Under the pieces are notes generated by a model. The model saw only the letters and a program-made list of their open reading frames with translations, was not told the DNA's origin and ran no database searches. A DNA stretch of 64,000 bases. Source: Corynebacterium matruchotii. Lineage in GTDB: Bacteria; Actinomycetota; Actinomycetes; Mycobacteriales; Mycobacteriaceae. The translations under genes and the position numbers were made by a program. Location of the stretch: the NCBI RefSeq assembly GCF_011612265.2, contig NZ_CP050134.2, forward strand, positions 1,302,001 to 1,366,000, read 5' to 3'. Of this stretch, positions 31,601 through 46,560 are shown piece after piece (the first letter of the stretch is position 1; each line of letters begins with the position of its first letter).

Positions 31601-32320
31601 GGATTTTCGGTTCGAAGCCGGGGACGTATGGTGCCGGGTTGCTGCAGTTGATTGAGTCGGGGAACTGGCGTGACGATAAGGATTTGGCTGAGGTGTATAC
31701 CACGTGGGGTGGGTATGCGTATGGTCGGGGCCTGGAGGGGGTTGCGGCTGCCGATGATATGCGGACGGCGTATAAGCGAATTCAGGTTGCGGCGAAGAAT
31801 GTGGATTCGAAGGAGCATGATATTGCGGATTCGGATGATTATTTCCAGTTCCATGGGGGGATGGTGGCGACGGTTCGGGCGCTGACCGGGTCGGATCCTG
31901 AGGCTTATATTGGGGATTCGACGCGGCAGGAGACGGTGAAGACGCGGACGTTGCATGAGGAGTCGCGGCGGGTGTTCCGGGCTCGGGTGGTGAATCCTCG
32001 GTGGTTGGCTGCTATGCGGGAGCATGGGTATAAGGGGGCGTTTGAGATGAGTGCGACCGTGGATTATTTGTTTGGTTATGATGCGACGACGAACATGATG
32101 GAGGATTGGATGTATGAGACGTTGACGCAGACGTATGTGGCGGATGAGGTGAATCGGGAGTTTTTTTGCGAAGTCGAATCCGTGGGCGTTGCGGGATATT
32201 TCGGAGCGGTTGTTGGAGGCTGCGGAGCGGAAGTTGTGGGAGAGCCCGTCTGAGGAGGCGTTGGAGACGCTGCGGGAGACGTATTTAGCTATGGAGGGTG
32301 AGTTGGAGGATCGAATGTAG
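28696..32320 (+). CDS. cobN: Cobaltochelatase subunit CobN, one frameshift
   Basis: Large subunit of the ATP-dependent aerobic cobaltochelatase that inserts cobalt into hydrogenobyrinate diamide. About 1207 residues. Typical segments: NYVHALADALVARGATAVPIF, SAYPTKHARIGNAVGLDTP, the metal-binding-type HMGKHGNMEWLPGKNAGLS, EYPKSVGLSVWGTSAMRT and SDDYFQFHGGMVATVRALTG. The start is GTG with GAAAGGA upstream, directly behind a cobalamin riboswitch. A run of seven T at 32161-32167 adds one base; removing it restores EFFAKSNPWALRDISERLLEAAE and a stop at 32318-32320. Partner subunits CobS/CobT or ChlI/ChlD are outside the window. Confidence 0.94.
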
Positions 32321-36247: not shown

Positions 36248-36943
36248 ATGGATACTCGACGTAAACCTATTATCATCGGCGGTGTTGTCATTATTGTGCT
36301 GTTGGCGATATTCGCCCTGGGCACGGTGGTGATGTCGTTATTAAGCACTCCAGGGGTGCACACCCCGGAGTTGAATGCGGATAACGCCAAGCCGGCATCA
36401 ACGGATGTGGGGGGCGAATGGCAAGTGGTCACCGGTGACGCGCCAAATATTTCCTCGGTAGGGTTTACGTTCGATGAGATTTTACCGTCGGATAAGCGCA
36501 CTACCTCCGGCTCTACCCAGGCGGTGCGGGGAACCATTACTGTCGACGACGTAACGTTGCAGCCTGGTGGCCGGATCGAGGTGGACATGACGTCGATTAA
36601 CACGGACACGCAGCGGCGCGACGTGAACGTGCGCACCAAGCTGTTCGACACGGACAACTACCCGGATGCGGCTTTTGAGGTGACCGAGCCGGTGGATTTG
36701 TCCGCGTTGCCAGATGACGGTTCAGTGGGCATGGTTACAGTGCCGGGGAAGCTCACTATCAAGGGGGAAACCCGGGAGGTAAAGCCCGAGTTCCAGGCGG
36801 TGCGTGATGGGGACAAGCTCACGGTGAGTACGGTGCTGCGGTTTAACCGGTTGGATTACGGGGTAAAAACCCCCGAGTTCATTGCGGCAAAAGTGTCCGA
36901 GGAGGGTGACCTGAATGTGCTCTTGACTTTCAAAAAGTCATGA
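36248..36943 (+). CDS. YceI family protein, membrane-anchored
   Basis: 231 residues. A basic start and one helix (IIIGGVVIIVLLAIFALGTVVM) form a signal anchor. The YceI lipocalin-like domain follows from about residue 55: GGEWQVVTGDAPNISSVGFTFDE, then VDMTSINTDTQRRDVNVRTKLFDTDNYPDAAFEV and LTIKGETREVKPEF. YceI domains bind isoprenoid or amphiphilic ligands in the periplasm; the ligand here is unknown. The stop codon overlaps the ATG of the next small membrane protein as ATGA, indicating coupled translation. Confidence 0.88.
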   Translation: MDTRRKPIIIGGVVIIVLLAIFALGTVVMSLLSTPGVHTPELNADNAKPASTDVGGEWQVVTGDAPNISSVGFTFDEILPSDKRTTSGSTQAVRGTITVDDVTLQPGGRIEVDMTSINTDTQRRDVNVRTKLFDTDNYPDAAFEVTEPVDLSALPDDGSVGMVTVPGKLTIKGETREVKPEFQAVRDGDKLTVSTVLRFNRLDYGVKTPEFIAAKVSEEGDLNVLLTFKKS

Positions 36944-37092
36944 TCCTTCCAATGCTATGGCTGCGGCTCGTCGTGGTCATTGGGTTCACCATTTTCGTGG
37001 CCATCCAACAAATGTGGCTCATCACGGCCATAGGGGTGGTGTTGACGCTGCTCACCGGCTATCAAATCTACCACGCCTATTCGTCACGATGA
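36940..37092 (+). CDS. 50-residue membrane protein coupled to YceI
   Basis: Short frame starting MILPMLWLRL with its ATG inside the YceI stop (ATGA). Almost the whole chain is two hydrophobic helices (LVVVIGFTIFVAIQQMWL and ITAIGVVLTLLTGYQIYHAY) with a polar end YSSR. The overlap and continuous hydrophobic pattern argue that it is translated. It may be a small partner of the YceI protein; no family was recognised. Its 3' end overlaps the convergent hydrolase stop by 9 bases. Confidence 0.65.
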   Translation: MILPMLWLRLVVVIGFTIFVAIQQMWLITAIGVVLTLLTGYQIYHAYSSR

Positions 37093-38064
37093 CGTTTCCC
37101 AGAAGTCGGTGAGTTTCTTCCCCAGCGGTTCGGCAACCTGCATGGGGAGCGAATGAGTGGTATCCGGCCACACCTCCACCTGGGCGTGGGGGAGTAGCTC
37201 ACCTGCGCGGTGCTGAGCTTTGTCCCCGCCGGCGAGCGAATCCGTGCTAGCTATCGCCACATAGCAGGGCATGGTGAGGGCACGCGCATCATCGTCGGAC
37301 AGCAGGCTGGGGGTGGGCAGGTGCGCGTCATAGTGGTGGGTGCCGGCGTCAATCATGCGGGCCATGGGTTCGGTGGGATCATAGTCGGTACCACCAATGC
37401 GGCCCAAGGCGTGGTTCCGCCAACCGGTGGGAAGCCCCGGCAGTGAGGCAACCATGGTCCAGGCCATGAGCCGGGCGGACGGGTAGCTGAACGTGAATAC
37501 CGGCTCCAGCAGCGTGAGTGATCGCACCTCGGTGGGGTAGTGGCGGGCATAGGCCGCGGCAGTGGCGCCGCCGAAGGAATGCCCAACAATATGCGCCCCG
37601 CGGGGCGCCTGCCTAACTAAAACCTGGTGAATCCACGCAGCCTGATCGGCCATATCCGCCAAGGGGGCGGCCTGGACCGACAGGCCAGCGTCCCCCAACG
37701 CGTCGAACGCTATCACCCGGTGGCGGCTACTGAACGCGGCAAGATTATCCGCCCACATTGGGGCTCCAGACGACCTCCCGGGAATAAGCACCACCGGCAT
37801 GCTGTCCCTCGTCTCTGGGGTGTGCCATTCGTACACCCGGACCGCCCCAAAATCCGTGTCAACATCAGCCGTAACACTAGGCGGGGTGGGGAAGCGTCGC
37901 ATAGCCTCCCGATAGTGCGTGACATATTCCTTCCGGCCGGCGACAGAACGGAACTGCCCAACAGTGGCATCGGAATCAGGGTGCAGGAACCAACCAAACG
38001 CGATCATAACAACCGACACCACAACGAGGGTGCGTTTCCGGCCGCGGAGGTCAGCAAGCTTCAT
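37084..38064 (-). CDS. Membrane-anchored alpha/beta hydrolase with a transporter-like N-terminus
   Basis: About 326 residues. The catalytic domain has HIVGHSFGGATAAAYARHYP (Ser nucleophile in GHSFGG), an oxyanion region VVLIPGRSSGAPMW, an acidic candidate in VAIASTDSL and the His in WPDTTHSLPM. GQFRSVAGRKEYVTHYREAM is the usual actinobacterial hydrolase opening. Before it, residues 1-36 (LADLRGRKRTLVVVSVVMIA...) copy a loop and helix of the neighbouring MHS transporter and would act as a signal anchor. ATG 38064 is preferred because GGGGG precedes it, though ATG 38085 is possible. Substrate unknown. It lies 18-39 bases downstream of the transporter gene on the same strand. Confidence 0.85.
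   Translation of the reverse strand: MKLADLRGRKRTLVVVSVVMIAFGWFLHPDSDATVGQFRSVAGRKEYVTHYREAMRRFPTPPSVTADVDTDFGAVRVYEWHTPETRDSMPVVLIPGRSSGAPMWADNLAAFSSRHRVIAFDALGDAGLSVQAAPLADMADQAAWIHQVLVRQAPRGAHIVGHSFGGATAAAYARHYPTEVRSLTLLEPVFTFSYPSARLMAWTMVASLPGLPTGWRNHALGRIGGTDYDPTEPMARMIDAGTHHYDAHLPTPSLLSDDDARALTMPCYVAIASTDSLAGGDKAQHRAGELLPHAQVEVWPDTTHSLPMQVAEPLGKKLTDFWETSS
37957..38064 (-). repeat. Partial copy of a transporter gene segment inside the hydrolase 5' end
   Basis: Read on the - strand, this stretch shares GCTTGCTGA, GGCCGGAA, ATGAT, GCGTTTGGT, a TGGTT-CTGC-CC-GAT block and GCCACTG in the same order with 38513-38398 in the MHS transporter gene. The protein match is LAD-RGRKRTL--VS-VMIAFG followed by L-PD--AT-G, with three extra residues in the transporter. 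A partial tandem duplication with fusion to a hydrolase gene would explain it. Confidence 0.75.
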
Positions 38065-38102
38065 ACCCCCAGTATGGCACGCCAAACCCCCAGAAACATG
38101 TG

Positions 38103-39464
38103 TTAAATGTCAGACATATCAAAATGCTTGGTTTCCTTCATCAGCAAGATAGCGATGAGGGAAAGCACGGACACAACAATAAGATAAATACCAACGGCAC
38201 CCACACCATAGGACTTCACCAACGCCGTCGCAACAAACGGGGCGATAGCGGCACCCAGGATGGACGCCACATTATAGCTAATCCCGGAACCGGTGTAGCG
38301 CACATTGGTGGGGAACAGCTCGGGCAGCACCGCGGACATGGGGCCGAAAATAAGGCCCATGATGAACATACCAACCGTGAGGAACACTAAAACCGTGCCC
38401 TCAGTGGCGGTATCCGGGCGCAGCAACCAGGAGAAGGTAAGACCAAACGCAATCATGACGGCGGAAACCGCTATAAGAGTGCGCTTCCGGCCCCGGGAAT
38501 CAGCAAGCCGCCCCGCAACCGGAATGCTCACGATGAACGCGAAAATCGAGACGAGCTGCAGCTTCAAAAAGTCCAGGTAGGGGATACCCAACCCAACACC
38601 CTTCTTGGCAATACCATAGGAAAGCACCCAGGTGGTGACCAGGTAAAACAGGGTATAGCAGGACACCATGATGAACGTGCCCAGAATTAACGGCTTCCAT
38701 GAGGTACGGAACACCTCGGCCAGGGGAGTCTTCACCTTCTTCCCGGACTCCACAGCCTTCTTAAACACCGGGGTTTCCTCCAGCCGGAACCGCACATACA
38801 ACCCAACAATGACCATGATGGCGCTGAGCAGGAAGGGAATCCGCCAACCCCAGGTCATAAAGGCCCCCTCAAAATCACCATCAGTGTGGTTTAAGACGGT
38901 GACAAGGATCAGGAAGAAACCGTTAGCAACCAGGAAACCAAACGGGGCACCCAGCTGCGGCCACATGGCGGCCCAGGCACGTTTCCCCTTGTCGGCGGTT
39001 TCCGTCGCCAGCAACGCGGCACCGGACCATTCGCCACCCAGCCCAAGGCCCTGACAGAACCGCATGAGAGCCAATAGGGCAGGGGCGATAATACCAACCT
39101 GGCCATAGGTGGGGAGCAGACCAATGAGGAATGTGGCAATACCCATGGTCAGCAACGAACCAACCAGGGTGGCTTTCCGGCCGATACGATCACCGAAGTG
39201 ACCGAAAACAATAGAACCCAAAGGGCGGGCGACGAATGCCAAGCCAAACGTAGCGAAAGACGCTAAAAGCCCAATGGTGGGGTCGTCGTTTTTCGGGAAG
39301 AACAAATACGGGAAGACAGCAACGGCGGCAGTGGCGTAGACGTAGAAGTCATAAAACTCAATGGTGGTGCCCACCATAGACGCGATAATAATCCGCCGGC
39401 GAGTGGCCGCGTCAACTCGGGGCGCGGCTGTAGGTTTGGTGACTGTTTGTTGCAGTTGAGACAT
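38103..39464 (-). CDS. MFS transporter, metabolite:H+ symporter (MHS) type
   Basis: 453 residues with twelve predicted helices. GTTIEFYDFYVYATAAVAVF at the first helix is typical of the MHS subfamily (ShiA, proline/betaine and dicarboxylate symporters). GHFGDRIGRKATL and RLADSRGRKRTL are the two MFS loop motifs (G-x3-D-R-x-G-R-R type), and RFCQGLGLGGEWSGAALLATE is the fifth-helix motif. It takes up a small organic acid, amino acid or related solute with protons; the substrate cannot be read. It is followed on the same strand by the hydrolase that carries a copy of its 38398-38513 segment. Confidence 0.9.
   Translation of the reverse strand: MSQLQQTVTKPTAAPRVDAATRRRIIIASMVGTTIEFYDFYVYATAAVAVFPYLFFPKNDDPTIGLLASFATFGLAFVARPLGSIVFGHFGDRIGRKATLVGSLLTMGIATFLIGLLPTYGQVGIIAPALLALMRFCQGLGLGGEWSGAALLATETADKGKRAWAAMWPQLGAPFGFLVANGFFLILVTVLNHTDGDFEGAFMTWGWRIPFLLSAIMVIVGLYVRFRLEETPVFKKAVESGKKVKTPLAEVFRTSWKPLILGTFIMVSCYTLFYLVTTWVLSYGIAKKGVGLGIPYLDFLKLQLVSIFAFIVSIPVAGRLADSRGRKRTLIAVSAVMIAFGLTFSWLLRPDTATEGTVLVFLTVGMFIMGLIFGPMSAVLPELFPTNVRYTGSGISYNVASILGAAIAPFVATALVKSYGVGAVGIYLIVVSVLSLIAILLMKETKHFDMSDI
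38398..38513 (-). repeat. Source segment in the transporter for the hydrolase 5' end
   Basis: Codons for GRLADSRGRKRTLIAVSAVM and the following helix of the MHS transporter. RGRKR is the conserved cytoplasmic loop motif of the major facilitator fold, repeated at mid-protein. This copy is in its native place, so it is the likely source of the related stretch at 37957-38064. Confidence 0.7.
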
Positions 39465-39585: not shown

Positions 39586-40101
39586 TTACGATGCACGCTC
39601 AATAGTGGCGTGAAAGAACCCCGTCTGCGCCTTCACAAGATCAATAGGATCATCAAACCGGCCAATACGGGCAATCCCACCCGAATAACTAACATCACCA
39701 TAATAAAAAGCAAGAGTATTCCACGGCCGAAACCACCCAATATCACCAGGCTGCGGATCATCACCCTCGGGCATACCATCCGCAGACAACGGTGGTTTCG
39801 GCAAATACCCAACCTTTTCCTGATTATCTACATCCTGCAGTCTTACCGTCAGCGGCAACCGATCAAGCAGATCCCGCGCCGGAGCATTGTCCCATAGGCG
39901 GGCATGTAGCACCTGACCGTTGATGGTGACCCGGATCGGCGTGCTTGCGGCCGAATCGTTCCCAGACGCAGATGATGTGGATGGGGACGGTGATTGTTGC
40001 GACGGCGTGCTGGAGCAGGAGGCGAGTGCGAGGATCCCGGCAACTATAAATATGAGCGATAGGGCACCCCGGGGGCGCGCTGGAGCCAATGAAACGATCA
40101 T
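39586..40101 (-). CDS. Lipoprotein with cyclophilin-like fold
   Basis: 171 residues. Signal peptide with a lipobox LALAS-C (Cys about residue 29), then a Ser/Pro-rich linker. From about residue 54 comes a cyclophilin-like domain: IRVTINGQVLHARLWDNAPARDLLDRLPLTVRL, GDIGWFRPWNTLAFYYGDVSYSGGIARIGRFDD. This matches the small cyclophilin-like family seen in secreted bacterial proteins, which lacks proven prolyl isomerase activity. The protein should be lipid-anchored outside the membrane. No operon partner; it is separated from the MHS gene by about 120 bases. Confidence 0.82.
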   Translation of the reverse strand: MIVSLAPARPRGALSLIFIVAGILALASCSSTPSQQSPSPSTSSASGNDSAASTPIRVTINGQVLHARLWDNAPARDLLDRLPLTVRLQDVDNQEKVGYLPKPPLSADGMPEGDDPQPGDIGWFRPWNTLAFYYGDVSYSGGIARIGRFDDPIDLVKAQTGFFHATIERAS

Positions 40102-40184
40102 ATCCCTTTATACTATTAGCGGATGCAGCAACAGGGTAGGGCGCCTAATACAGCCGTTTTGACATAATGTACATTATCGGCGCG

Positions 40185-41498
40185 TTACCCCCAGGCGCGT
40201 CGATACCGAGACGTCACCACTAGCTGCAGCGCATCGAGCGCCCCCACCCGGAATAATGCCTCCCGCAGCGCCAGCTGAAACACCCACAGGTTCCGATACA
40301 CCCGATCATAACCATTCGCGGCGGCCTCCCGGGACTGCGCCTCAAACGTCTCCCGCTGCATCGCTAGCCCCTCAACATAGTGCGACCCCATGTGCGTTTG
40401 CGCAATGATCCGCAGGTCCGTGTTCACGTCGAAAAGACGATGCAGTTGCTCGATAGTGAGATAGTTCAATGCCGGCCAAATATACGCCCGCAGCACATCC
40501 GCACACCGGTCAAGCGTTACCGACAGCTTATCTGTCGCCACCACCGTTTGGATCGCTAAAAACCCACCATGCACCAGCATCCGGTTTAACGATTGCGCAT
40601 ACACTCGCTGCGCTTGGGTATCCATGACTTCGAGCTTTTCGACGCTGGTAATCACATCGTAATGGCTTGGCCACGTGCGCGGATTAGGGAAAAGCGACTC
40701 CAACAGCCGCACCTGCACCGACGAATCCACATCCGCCAGCGCCACCACATCCTGCACATCCGCCACCTGCTGAGCGTCACTGCTTAACACATCCACGGTG
40801 GCCGACCGCCGGGCCGCCGCAATGGGAATCGTCGGACCCGAACTGGGAAAATCCAGCACATGGGTGCCTATGCCTACATGCGCCGCGTCTAACAACCCCA
40901 CGGCCGCCCGCACCTGGGCGTCCCCCAAATCCGCCCGTTCCACCAGTGTGGGGGGCGATAATTCGGTGATGTCCACAAAATGCTGGCCCGGCTCGTCTTT
41001 CTTCCCGGCTCCCGGCACATAGCTTTTCATGTACACCCGTTCCGTTGTGGGCACCCCAGAGGAAAATACTGGACCGTGCGTGCTCATCCCATCACCGGAA
41101 TACAGTCGCACCAAACTGTCGGGGATTTCCTCCCCTAAATATAATCCGCCCACCTCTAGTTTGCCGCACCTAGGACGGTAGCCCGCCTCCAGCAGGCCGG
41201 TGAGTACCCGCACCAGATTATCACTTTCCCACTCCCCGGCCATATAACCTTCGGCCAGCCCCAGCCAACCGGAGTACGCAATCCGGGTAAAGACCTCCTC
41301 GTATAGCACCCGCAGATCCGGTTGAGGGCCGTCAAGATCCAGCCCGGCCTTTTCGCAGGCGGTAGCAAACTCGGCTTCCGCCCGGCGGGCTTTTGACGCT
41401 GCGAACATTCCTGTAGGAATCGTGACGATGCCCGGCCACACATCCGCATTTATCGCAGCTAAATGATGATACCTGCCGGTATCTTGCAGAGCTTGCAC
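40185..41498 (-). CDS. Cyclopropane-fatty-acid synthase-like methyltransferase, degenerate SAM site
   Basis: 437 residues. The overall layout follows the Cfa/mycolic acid cyclopropane synthase family: an N-terminal helical domain with GWLGLAEGYMAGEWESDNLVRVL, then a Rossmann-like domain and the YIWPALNYLTIEQLHRLFDVNTDL segment, as in Cfa (YIFPGG...). The expected SAM-binding loop (family pattern V-L-E-I-G-C-G-W-G) reads VLDFPSSGPTIPIAA here, without the G-x-G. Catalysis is therefore doubtful, or the protein may bind something else. C-terminal LWVFQLALREALFRVG is also family-like. It is divergent from ndh. Confidence 0.75.
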   Translation of the reverse strand: MQALQDTGRYHHLAAINADVWPGIVTIPTGMFAASKARRAEAEFATACEKAGLDLDGPQPDLRVLYEEVFTRIAYSGWLGLAEGYMAGEWESDNLVRVLTGLLEAGYRPRCGKLEVGGLYLGEEIPDSLVRLYSGDGMSTHGPVFSSGVPTTERVYMKSYVPGAGKKDEPGQHFVDITELSPPTLVERADLGDAQVRAAVGLLDAAHVGIGTHVLDFPSSGPTIPIAAARRSATVDVLSSDAQQVADVQDVVALADVDSSVQVRLLESLFPNPRTWPSHYDVITSVEKLEVMDTQAQRVYAQSLNRMLVHGGFLAIQTVVATDKLSVTLDRCADVLRAYIWPALNYLTIEQLHRLFDVNTDLRIIAQTHMGSHYVEGLAMQRETFEAQSREAAANGYDRVYRNLWVFQLALREALFRVGALDALQLVVTSRYRRAWG

Positions 41499-45294: not shown

Positions 45295-45411
45295 AGTAAT
45301 TAGCCTACTTATTTTCAGTAGCACGTGGATAATAAGCTTCCTGGCTCACATAATTTTCACTATCATATATGGGATAGCCAAGAGAAAATTTTTATCGTAG
45401 GGGCGCGGACT

Positions 45412-46560
45412 ATGCCAACAAAGCGGATACGAAACACCGGGATCAGCTGGCAGGGGCGGTACCGCGATGCCTCCGGCAAGGAACACAGTAAAACATTTAG
45501 AACCAAACGGGAGGCGAAGGCGTGGGAAGACGACCAGATCCGCGCCGTCCGCCGCGGCGAGTGGCTGGACCCGCAAACCAGCACCATCACCGTGCATGAA
45601 CTGGTGAAAAAGAAACTCTCCCAGTCGGCGAAACCCAATACCCAGCAGGCACGGAACTACCTATTGGCAAACCTTGGTGACCTCTCCCCCATCCCAATCA
45701 CGGCGCTGCGGCCGGCAATGGTCCGCTCCTGGCTGCACGTTTTAGAAACCGGGCGGCCGTGGGTGTCGGACCGCAGCCCGCTGGCGGCAAACACCATCAG
45801 CATGATCGCCGGCCAGCTGCGGGCGATTTTGACCCAGGCGGTCAACGACGACGTGATTTTACGCCACCCCATGCGGGGTGTGGTGATTTCATCCGCGTCA
45901 AAGCAGGTAGAGCGCGACGATATCCCAGATACCGAGGAAATCCAGGCCCTGATTCGGGCGGCCTACTCGTCCGGCCGGGGAGTGTCGCCGAACCCGCAAC
46001 TGGCCCGCATGATTATCGTGGCGGCCACCACGGGGCTGCGCGGCGGCGAAATCGGGGGGTTGCGGGTCAAGGACGTGGATTTCTTCCGCCGGGAACTGCA
46101 CGTTTCCCAACAGGTGAGCCAGAATAGTGCGGAGCCGACCGCCCCGAAATCGCGGCGGGCCTCCCGAACCGTTCCACTCACGGAGGAAACCCTGGCGGCA
46201 TTGAACACGCAACTGCGGGAACGACCCCGCGGCCGGGAGGAAACCATTTTCGCGGCGAAAAGCGGCGAGCCCTATAATTCCCTAGCGATCGGAACCCAAT
46301 TTAAAAACCTGACGAAACGAGTTGGGGTAACCACAACCTTTCACGCTTTACGTCACTATTACGCTTCTAAGCTGATCGAGTCCGGGGTGAGCGTGTCGGT
46401 CGTGCAACGGGTGTTGGGACATTCGTCGCCGGCAACAACGCTTGGGGTGTATGCGCACCTGTGGCCGGGGGCGGAAGACGAGGTCCGCGACGCGGTGCGG
46501 TCATTCTGCGGTATTTCAGACCAAAAACCCACGAAAGATATTGGTAAAATACCAGGTTAA
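45412..46560 (+). CDS. Tyrosine recombinase (phage-type integrase)
   Basis: 382 residues from MPTKRIRNTGISWQGRYRD. An N-terminal arm-binding AP2-like region is followed by the SAM-like core-binding domain (residues about 60-165) and the catalytic domain. The active-site residues are present: Arg in TTGLRGGEI, the His-x-x-Arg box in FHALRHYYASKLI, the second His in GHSSPATTLGVYAHL, and the Tyr nucleophile in the same segment. It resembles integrases of corynebacterial and mycobacterial phages. No other phage or conjugative gene is nearby. It interrupts what is otherwise a conserved thioesterase-gnd neighbourhood and is followed by AT-rich DNA. Confidence 0.92.
   Translation: MPTKRIRNTGISWQGRYRDASGKEHSKTFRTKREAKAWEDDQIRAVRRGEWLDPQTSTITVHELVKKKLSQSAKPNTQQARNYLLANLGDLSPIPITALRPAMVRSWLHVLETGRPWVSDRSPLAANTISMIAGQLRAILTQAVNDDVILRHPMRGVVISSASKQVERDDIPDTEEIQALIRAAYSSGRGVSPNPQLARMIIVAATTGLRGGEIGGLRVKDVDFFRRELHVSQQVSQNSAEPTAPKSRRASRTVPLTEETLAALNTQLRERPRGREETIFAAKSGEPYNSLAIGTQFKNLTKRVGVTTTFHALRHYYASKLIESGVSVSVVQRVLGHSSPATTLGVYAHLWPGAEDEVRDAVRSFCGISDQKPTKDIGKIPG

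Follow-up and report, generated by a model that had tools for sequence, protein, structure and literature searches.

Probable replacement of the N-terminal anchor of an alpha/beta hydrolase by a copied piece of the neighbouring transporter gene in Corynebacterium matruchotii

Hydrolase and transporter genes at the locus

The window, a stretch of 64,000 nucleotides of Corynebacterium matruchotii DNA (contig NZ_CP050134.2, positions 1,302,001 to 1,366,000), harbours an alpha/beta hydrolase gene directly behind a gene coding for an MHS-type transporter, near a dif site. Positions are those of the window, and the following features are of relevance:

36248..36943, plus strand: YceI-like protein (PF04264), which flanks the hydrolase on the side away from MHS
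37084..38064, minus strand: alpha/beta hydrolase CDS, ATG at 38064, 326 amino acids, PF00561 above cut-off
37957..38058, minus strand: transporter-like piece of the hydrolase gene, codons 3-36, 51/67 bases including the core
37993-38058, minus strand: ungapped 66-base core of this piece, hydrolase codons 3-24, 50/66 bases
38065..38102, minus strand: spacer of 38 bases from the MHS stop to the hydrolase ATG
38103..39464, minus strand: MHS-type (metabolite:H+ symporter-like) major facilitator transporter, 453 amino acids, assigned by Pfam
38397..38510, minus strand: donor stretch, MHS codons 319-356, a loop with an RGRK motif and the next helix
38442-38507, minus strand: donor core, MHS codons 320-341
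39586..40101, minus strand: cyclophilin-like small protein with a lipoprotein-like N-terminus (PF18050, 113.5 bits), between MHS and dif
40157..40184, plus strand: dif site with a conserved 21-base core at 40160-40180

The hydrolase scores well above the Pfam cut-offs for PF00561 (62.7 bits, cut-off 25.8) and PF12697 (59.2 bits, cut-off 26.3). A named NCBIfam assignment was not obtained, as the scores for all 17 families listed for the hydrolase were below the curated cut-off. The closest solved sequences are the carboxylesterases YbfK / NP (4ccy, 2r11 and 4ccw; E 2e-17 to 1e-15). Their likeness to the hydrolase extends over residues 37-321 or 47-321, and since the matches start at residue 37 or later, none of them covers the transporter-derived piece. 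Ser163 (in GHSFGG) and His304 are invariant across seven aligned sequences, which include 6 of the 22 relatives described below. The protein has a single hydrophobic segment, at codons 10-30 (hydropathy above 1.6), and no later one. It follows the basic motif RGRKR at codons 7-11, an arrangement with the sequence features of an N-terminal signal anchor, and the hydrolase is apparently membrane-tethered.

Translation of the hydrolase likely starts at 38064, although the ribosome-binding signal upstream of this ATG is poor. An alternative TTG start at 38085 would add seven codons. Reading of the spacer by eye revealed a mini-ORF of 12 codons, with its ATG at 38099, which ends over the hydrolase ATG and could provide translational coupling to the hydrolase. 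Comparison by eye of the spacer with the DNA behind the MHS gene in two other genomes, G041 and G225, revealed no similarity. G041 is the nearest relative by MHS (88%).

The transporter exceeds the Pfam cut-offs of PF00083 (114.4 bits) and PF07690 (107.4 bits). TIGR00883, the model of the MHS / metabolite:H+ symporter subfamily, matches over its whole length with 430.8 bits, below its cut-off of 443.45. As the general major facilitator models were reached and the TIGR00883 cut-off was missed, the protein is referred to here as MHS-type, membership in the subfamily not being certain. The top named records for this protein are from Corynebacterium meridianum and C. pygosceleis. In terms of the major facilitator fold, we assign the donor stretch to loop 8-9 and helix 9. 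The motif-A-like loop 8-9 of this fold is on the cytoplasmic side, and the helix after it runs outward.

Match between the hydrolase 5' end and the transporter gene

The first ~36 codons of the hydrolase (37957-38064, minus strand) resemble MHS codons 319-356, with frame and orientation preserved. A sequence-only reading of this DNA had proposed such a match with an internal piece of the adjacent transporter, and the pairwise nucleotide alignment that it called for bears this out. Without gaps, 51 of 67 bases (76%) are identical between 38508-38442 and the hydrolase 5' end (E 1.07e-8 in 64 kb). The alignment extends to 117 columns across gaps of 12 and 3 bases, and a further gap, of 1 base, occurs only in the last bases; after the 12- and 3-base gaps a short tail aligns around GCCACTG and GGGCA. 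At the protein level the alignment of KLADLRGRKRTLVVVSVVMIAFG----WFLHPDSDATVG with RLADSRGRKRTLIAVSAVMIAFGLTFSWLLRPDT-ATEG has a BLOSUM62 score of 106. A search of the own genome with the hydrolase gave the adjacent MHS gene as best non-self match (E 8.1e-6, 74%). An own-genome DNA search missed the MHS match, probably because the longest exact runs in the match, 9 bases, are shorter than the seed length of that search. Another transporter as donor was also considered and rejected: at E <= 1e-3 the own genome yielded only the hydrolase itself, MHS and one hydrolase-body match, thus no further match to the N-terminus.

Two proteins might resemble each other simply because both have a hydrophobic helix after a basic stretch, and for this reason a null of natural pairs was used. 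Each of 22 related hydrolases (L004-L025) contributed its N-terminal DNA, which was paired with 55 MHS genes (30 found by searching the genus, the own gene among them, and 25 taken from named records), giving 1210 pairs. Two of the named records (L080 and L081) have the same MHS segment and counts as L044 and L041 and probably represent the same species twice; for L010 the excised piece was out of frame, and its 55 pairs are therefore not true anchors. The maximum score was 22 over the 1210 pairs and 19 against the own MHS gene, compared to 36 for the window pair. In 500 codon shuffles of the hydrolase piece the maximum was 20 (mean 11.9), and the fragment scored 11 at most against the anchors of related hydrolases. 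These scores, together with the own MHS gene being the nearest of the 55, agree with the earlier proposal that the piece derives from the adjacent transporter; there is good support for its having been copied from MHS.

Over the 66-base core the fragment has 50 bases in common with the own MHS gene, the highest number among the 55 MHS genes, followed by G012 with 47 and by G041, L041, L081 and L050 with 45 each (median of the 54 others 38). Sites common to two of three sequences number 10 (fragment and own MHS), 5 and 5 with G041 as third sequence and, more weakly, 9, 6 and 5 with G012. Because of these shared sites the copy was probably made in the lineage of the window, near or after the split from G041, the age test being a weak one. 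The copying is not recent, judging from the 16 differences in the 66-base core; for comparison, 995 of 1359 aligned columns are the same in the whole MHS genes of the own genome (G000) and G041. Third codon positions hold 11 of these 16 (P 0.004 against an even distribution). By a rough rule 7 differences fall on the hydrolase branch (5 at third positions), 8 on the MHS branch (5 at third positions) and 1 on neither; these numbers are too small for a claim of selection on the hydrolase side.

N-termini of related hydrolases and gene order around dif

The genus collection consisted of 242 Corynebacterium genomes, own included, with one genome per species. Some match to the hydrolase was found in 123 of these, many being weak matches to other hydrolases. 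Near full-length relatives, besides the window gene, occur at 22 loci in the 242 genomes and are 35-60% identical; at L010 (G117) the gene is divided between two frames, and at L025 it has an internal stop. None of the 22 carries the transporter piece. An alignment with 6 of the 22 relatives showed that the family sequence starts at VG-F, where the MHS-like part of the window hydrolase ends. The earlier claims that the family-like hydrolase directly follows the piece, and that relatives have different, non-transporter N-termini, have thus held up, and the contrary observation, many relatives with the same N-terminus, was looked for and not found among the 22. All 22 N-termini consist of a basic stretch followed by a hydrophobic stretch (L010 read in its second frame), and RGR-like basic stretches occur in L004 (RGRRGW), L009 (RGRRLRK) and L017 (RGRRGW). 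Two other parts of the sequence-only reading did not stand: the anchor was not gained by the hydrolase, as relatives already have a basic and a hydrophobic segment at the same place, and basic stretches of the RGR type are not foreign to this hydrolase family, in view of these three loci. The gain of an anchor by a soluble enzyme is excluded, since the relatives already have anchors; an older anchor therefore appears to have been replaced here. An MHS-like frame was found neither within 1.5 kb of the hydrolase in the 22 relative loci nor within about 10 kb in the 12 relative loci fetched widely, and none of the genomes searched harbours an intermediate form of the fusion.

A 21-base identity with relatives around 40160 proved to be dif, a conserved XerCD-type site (palindrome 40160-40180). 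The own genome has one copy, at 1342160 of 2866540 bases, and dif was found in 239 of the 242 genus genomes, with two matches in G044, G127 and G220. With its flanks the site is identical in 24 of 28 bases to the 28-base Frankia dif as quoted in PMC3025954. The CFA stop codon begins at 40185, and the 28-base dif ends one base before it. The GC skew in the window changes from + to - at about 38 kb, but further switches occur elsewhere in the window. A search of L063-L081 with the cyclophilin-like protein (39586..40101) gave no match, even with the threshold at E 1. In L063, L064 and L067 other genes occupy the interval from dif to MHS, judged by eye to be amidase-like, symporter-like and peroxidase-like ORFs.

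The gene order of the window deviates from that of its relatives. MHS and CFA are convergent in all 22 other loci with both in view (42 looked at) and not in the window. The MHS 5' end points toward dif in 12/12 loci with dif in view, yceI lies beyond dif in 8/8 loci, and the order yceI-dif-MHS-CFA is kept in all five relatives read over 17-20 kb (L063-L067). In the window the mutual arrangement of MHS and dif is kept and this core is inverted versus both flanks: yceI faces the 3' side of MHS, CFA ends at dif, and the hydrolase lies between yceI and MHS, exactly at this joint. Furthermore, the wider surroundings of 13 hydrolase loci were read (L063, L068-L079). Four of these have the hydrolase between fxsA and cobN (L068, L069, L072 and, as a remnant, L063); in L070 it adjoins fxsA at a contig end, and in the other 8 of 13 it is located elsewhere, which leaves its ancestral place uncertain. 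The window has cobN and fxsA adjacent, with no hydrolase between them. The remnant in G041 (L063, 16175-16521), between fxsA and cobN, misses its N-terminus and contains an internal stop. Under a parsimony model with the blocks hydrolase, lnt..yceI and dif-MHS, the step from a G041-like to the window order needs at least 3 inversions, and all three shortest paths include an inversion bringing the hydrolase 5' end beside the MHS 3' end; this count is a product of the model, not an observation. The hydrolase locus looks like a rearrangement joint near dif and the chromosome terminus.

Two further observations concern the surroundings. The C-terminal part of the cobN-like ORF (about 32150-32310) seems to be continued in another frame (NPWALRDISERLLEAAERKLW...), and a frameshift, either in the gene or in the assembly, may account for its listed end at 32253. 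A tyrosine-integrase-like ORF (45325-46560) is located between a thioesterase-like gene and gnd (names by eye); such an ORF was not seen between these two genes in L064-L067.

Origin of the anchor, alternatives and known systems

It is considered probable that a piece copied from the adjacent MHS transporter took the place of the existing N-terminal anchor of the hydrolase, with a repair route at the terminus and an anchor role of the piece as the presumed elements of this reading. The ancestral hydrolase would already have had an N-terminal membrane anchor. It may then have been moved in rearrangements around the terminus, with loss of its 5' end, and repair at the joint would have inserted ~100 bp copied from nearby MHS in the same orientation and frame. 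The copied loop 8-9 and helix 9 would have restored a start and a putative N-in/C-out anchor. With loop 8-9 on the cytoplasmic side and helix 9 running outward, the transplant would keep this direction; the basic loop and the outward-running helix would hold the catalytic domain outside, presumably as with the older anchor.

The main rival has the same donor and product and differs in route: MHS or its 3' half would have been duplicated in tandem, the hydrolase would have fused to this larger copy behind MHS, and a later deletion would have left 36 codons. The location of the piece directly behind MHS, in the same orientation and frame, would fit such a trimmed duplicate; however, no MHS remnant was seen beyond ~100 bp, the MHS stop and the hydrolase ATG are separated by 38 bases, and a second MHS-like gene (E <= 1e-100) was listed in 3 of 116 matching genomes and is distant (45-46% identity). 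This route is a serious but clearly less probable one. The partial tandem duplication proposed in the earlier reading is a possible event, in which what is left of MHS is about 100 bp at an apparent rearrangement joint. Formation of the fusion in an unsampled Corynebacterium, followed by horizontal transfer of the ready-made gene with MHS or via recombination at the terminus, could explain the patchy presence of the hydrolase in the genus, its frequent location elsewhere and the lack of an intermediate in the genomes searched. It is quite unlikely given that the fragment is nearest to the own MHS gene and that MHS keeps its usual arrangement to dif.

The transporter-like codons might also be untranslated or without a role, in which case the enzyme would be cytoplasmic and its real start a GTG or ATG within the helix. 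Such codons are indeed present internally and the ribosome-binding signal at 38064 is weak. Against this, the frame is kept over 36 codons and two frame-keeping gaps, 11 of the 16 core differences are at third positions (P 0.004, part of them on the MHS branch), and the family in the relatives begins with an anchor; an internal start is given equally little credence as transfer. That chance or convergence made two basic-plus-hydrophobic segments alike would find some basis in the anchors of certain relatives, with RGRR-like stretches followed by Val/Ile/Ala-rich helices. This explanation has a next to negligible probability, as the best non-self partner in the genome is the adjacent gene, and the score of 36 against at most 20 (500 codon shuffles) and at most 22 (1210 natural pairs) largely refutes it. 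Replacement of the older anchor by a piece copied at the joint thus stays the preferred reading. Its generalization, that rearrangement joints around dif in Corynebacterium receive short copies of coding DNA and that new protein-targeting segments can arise there in one step, with the membrane direction inherited from the donor helix, is put forward as a doubtful proposal.

A literature search covering titles and abstract openings found no prior report of this case or of a bacterial anchor derived from a transporter. Bacterial membrane anchors with a nameable donor are useful, and here the donor is the adjacent gene; relatives show the older anchor type, and the spot coincides with a rearrangement joint. 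Provided that the piece functions, the loop and helix of a transporter can act alone as signal anchor with the in-to-out direction kept. The case also illustrates that claims of a new anchor need relatives, as the anchor here would be a replacement. Chimeric genes formed via partial duplication of a neighbouring gene are a known general class. Common to this class and the present case is a coding piece copied in frame onto another gene, where it takes a new role; the difference is that here an existing anchor would have been exchanged for a transporter loop and helix, with the joint at a rearrangement near dif. Another named class is that of templated insertions at rearrangement junctions, with human and other eukaryotic cases in the part of the literature covered. 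These share with the present case a short copy of nearby DNA within a junction, whereas the insertion described here is bacterial, in frame and long inherited, and templated repair would be its presumed mechanism.
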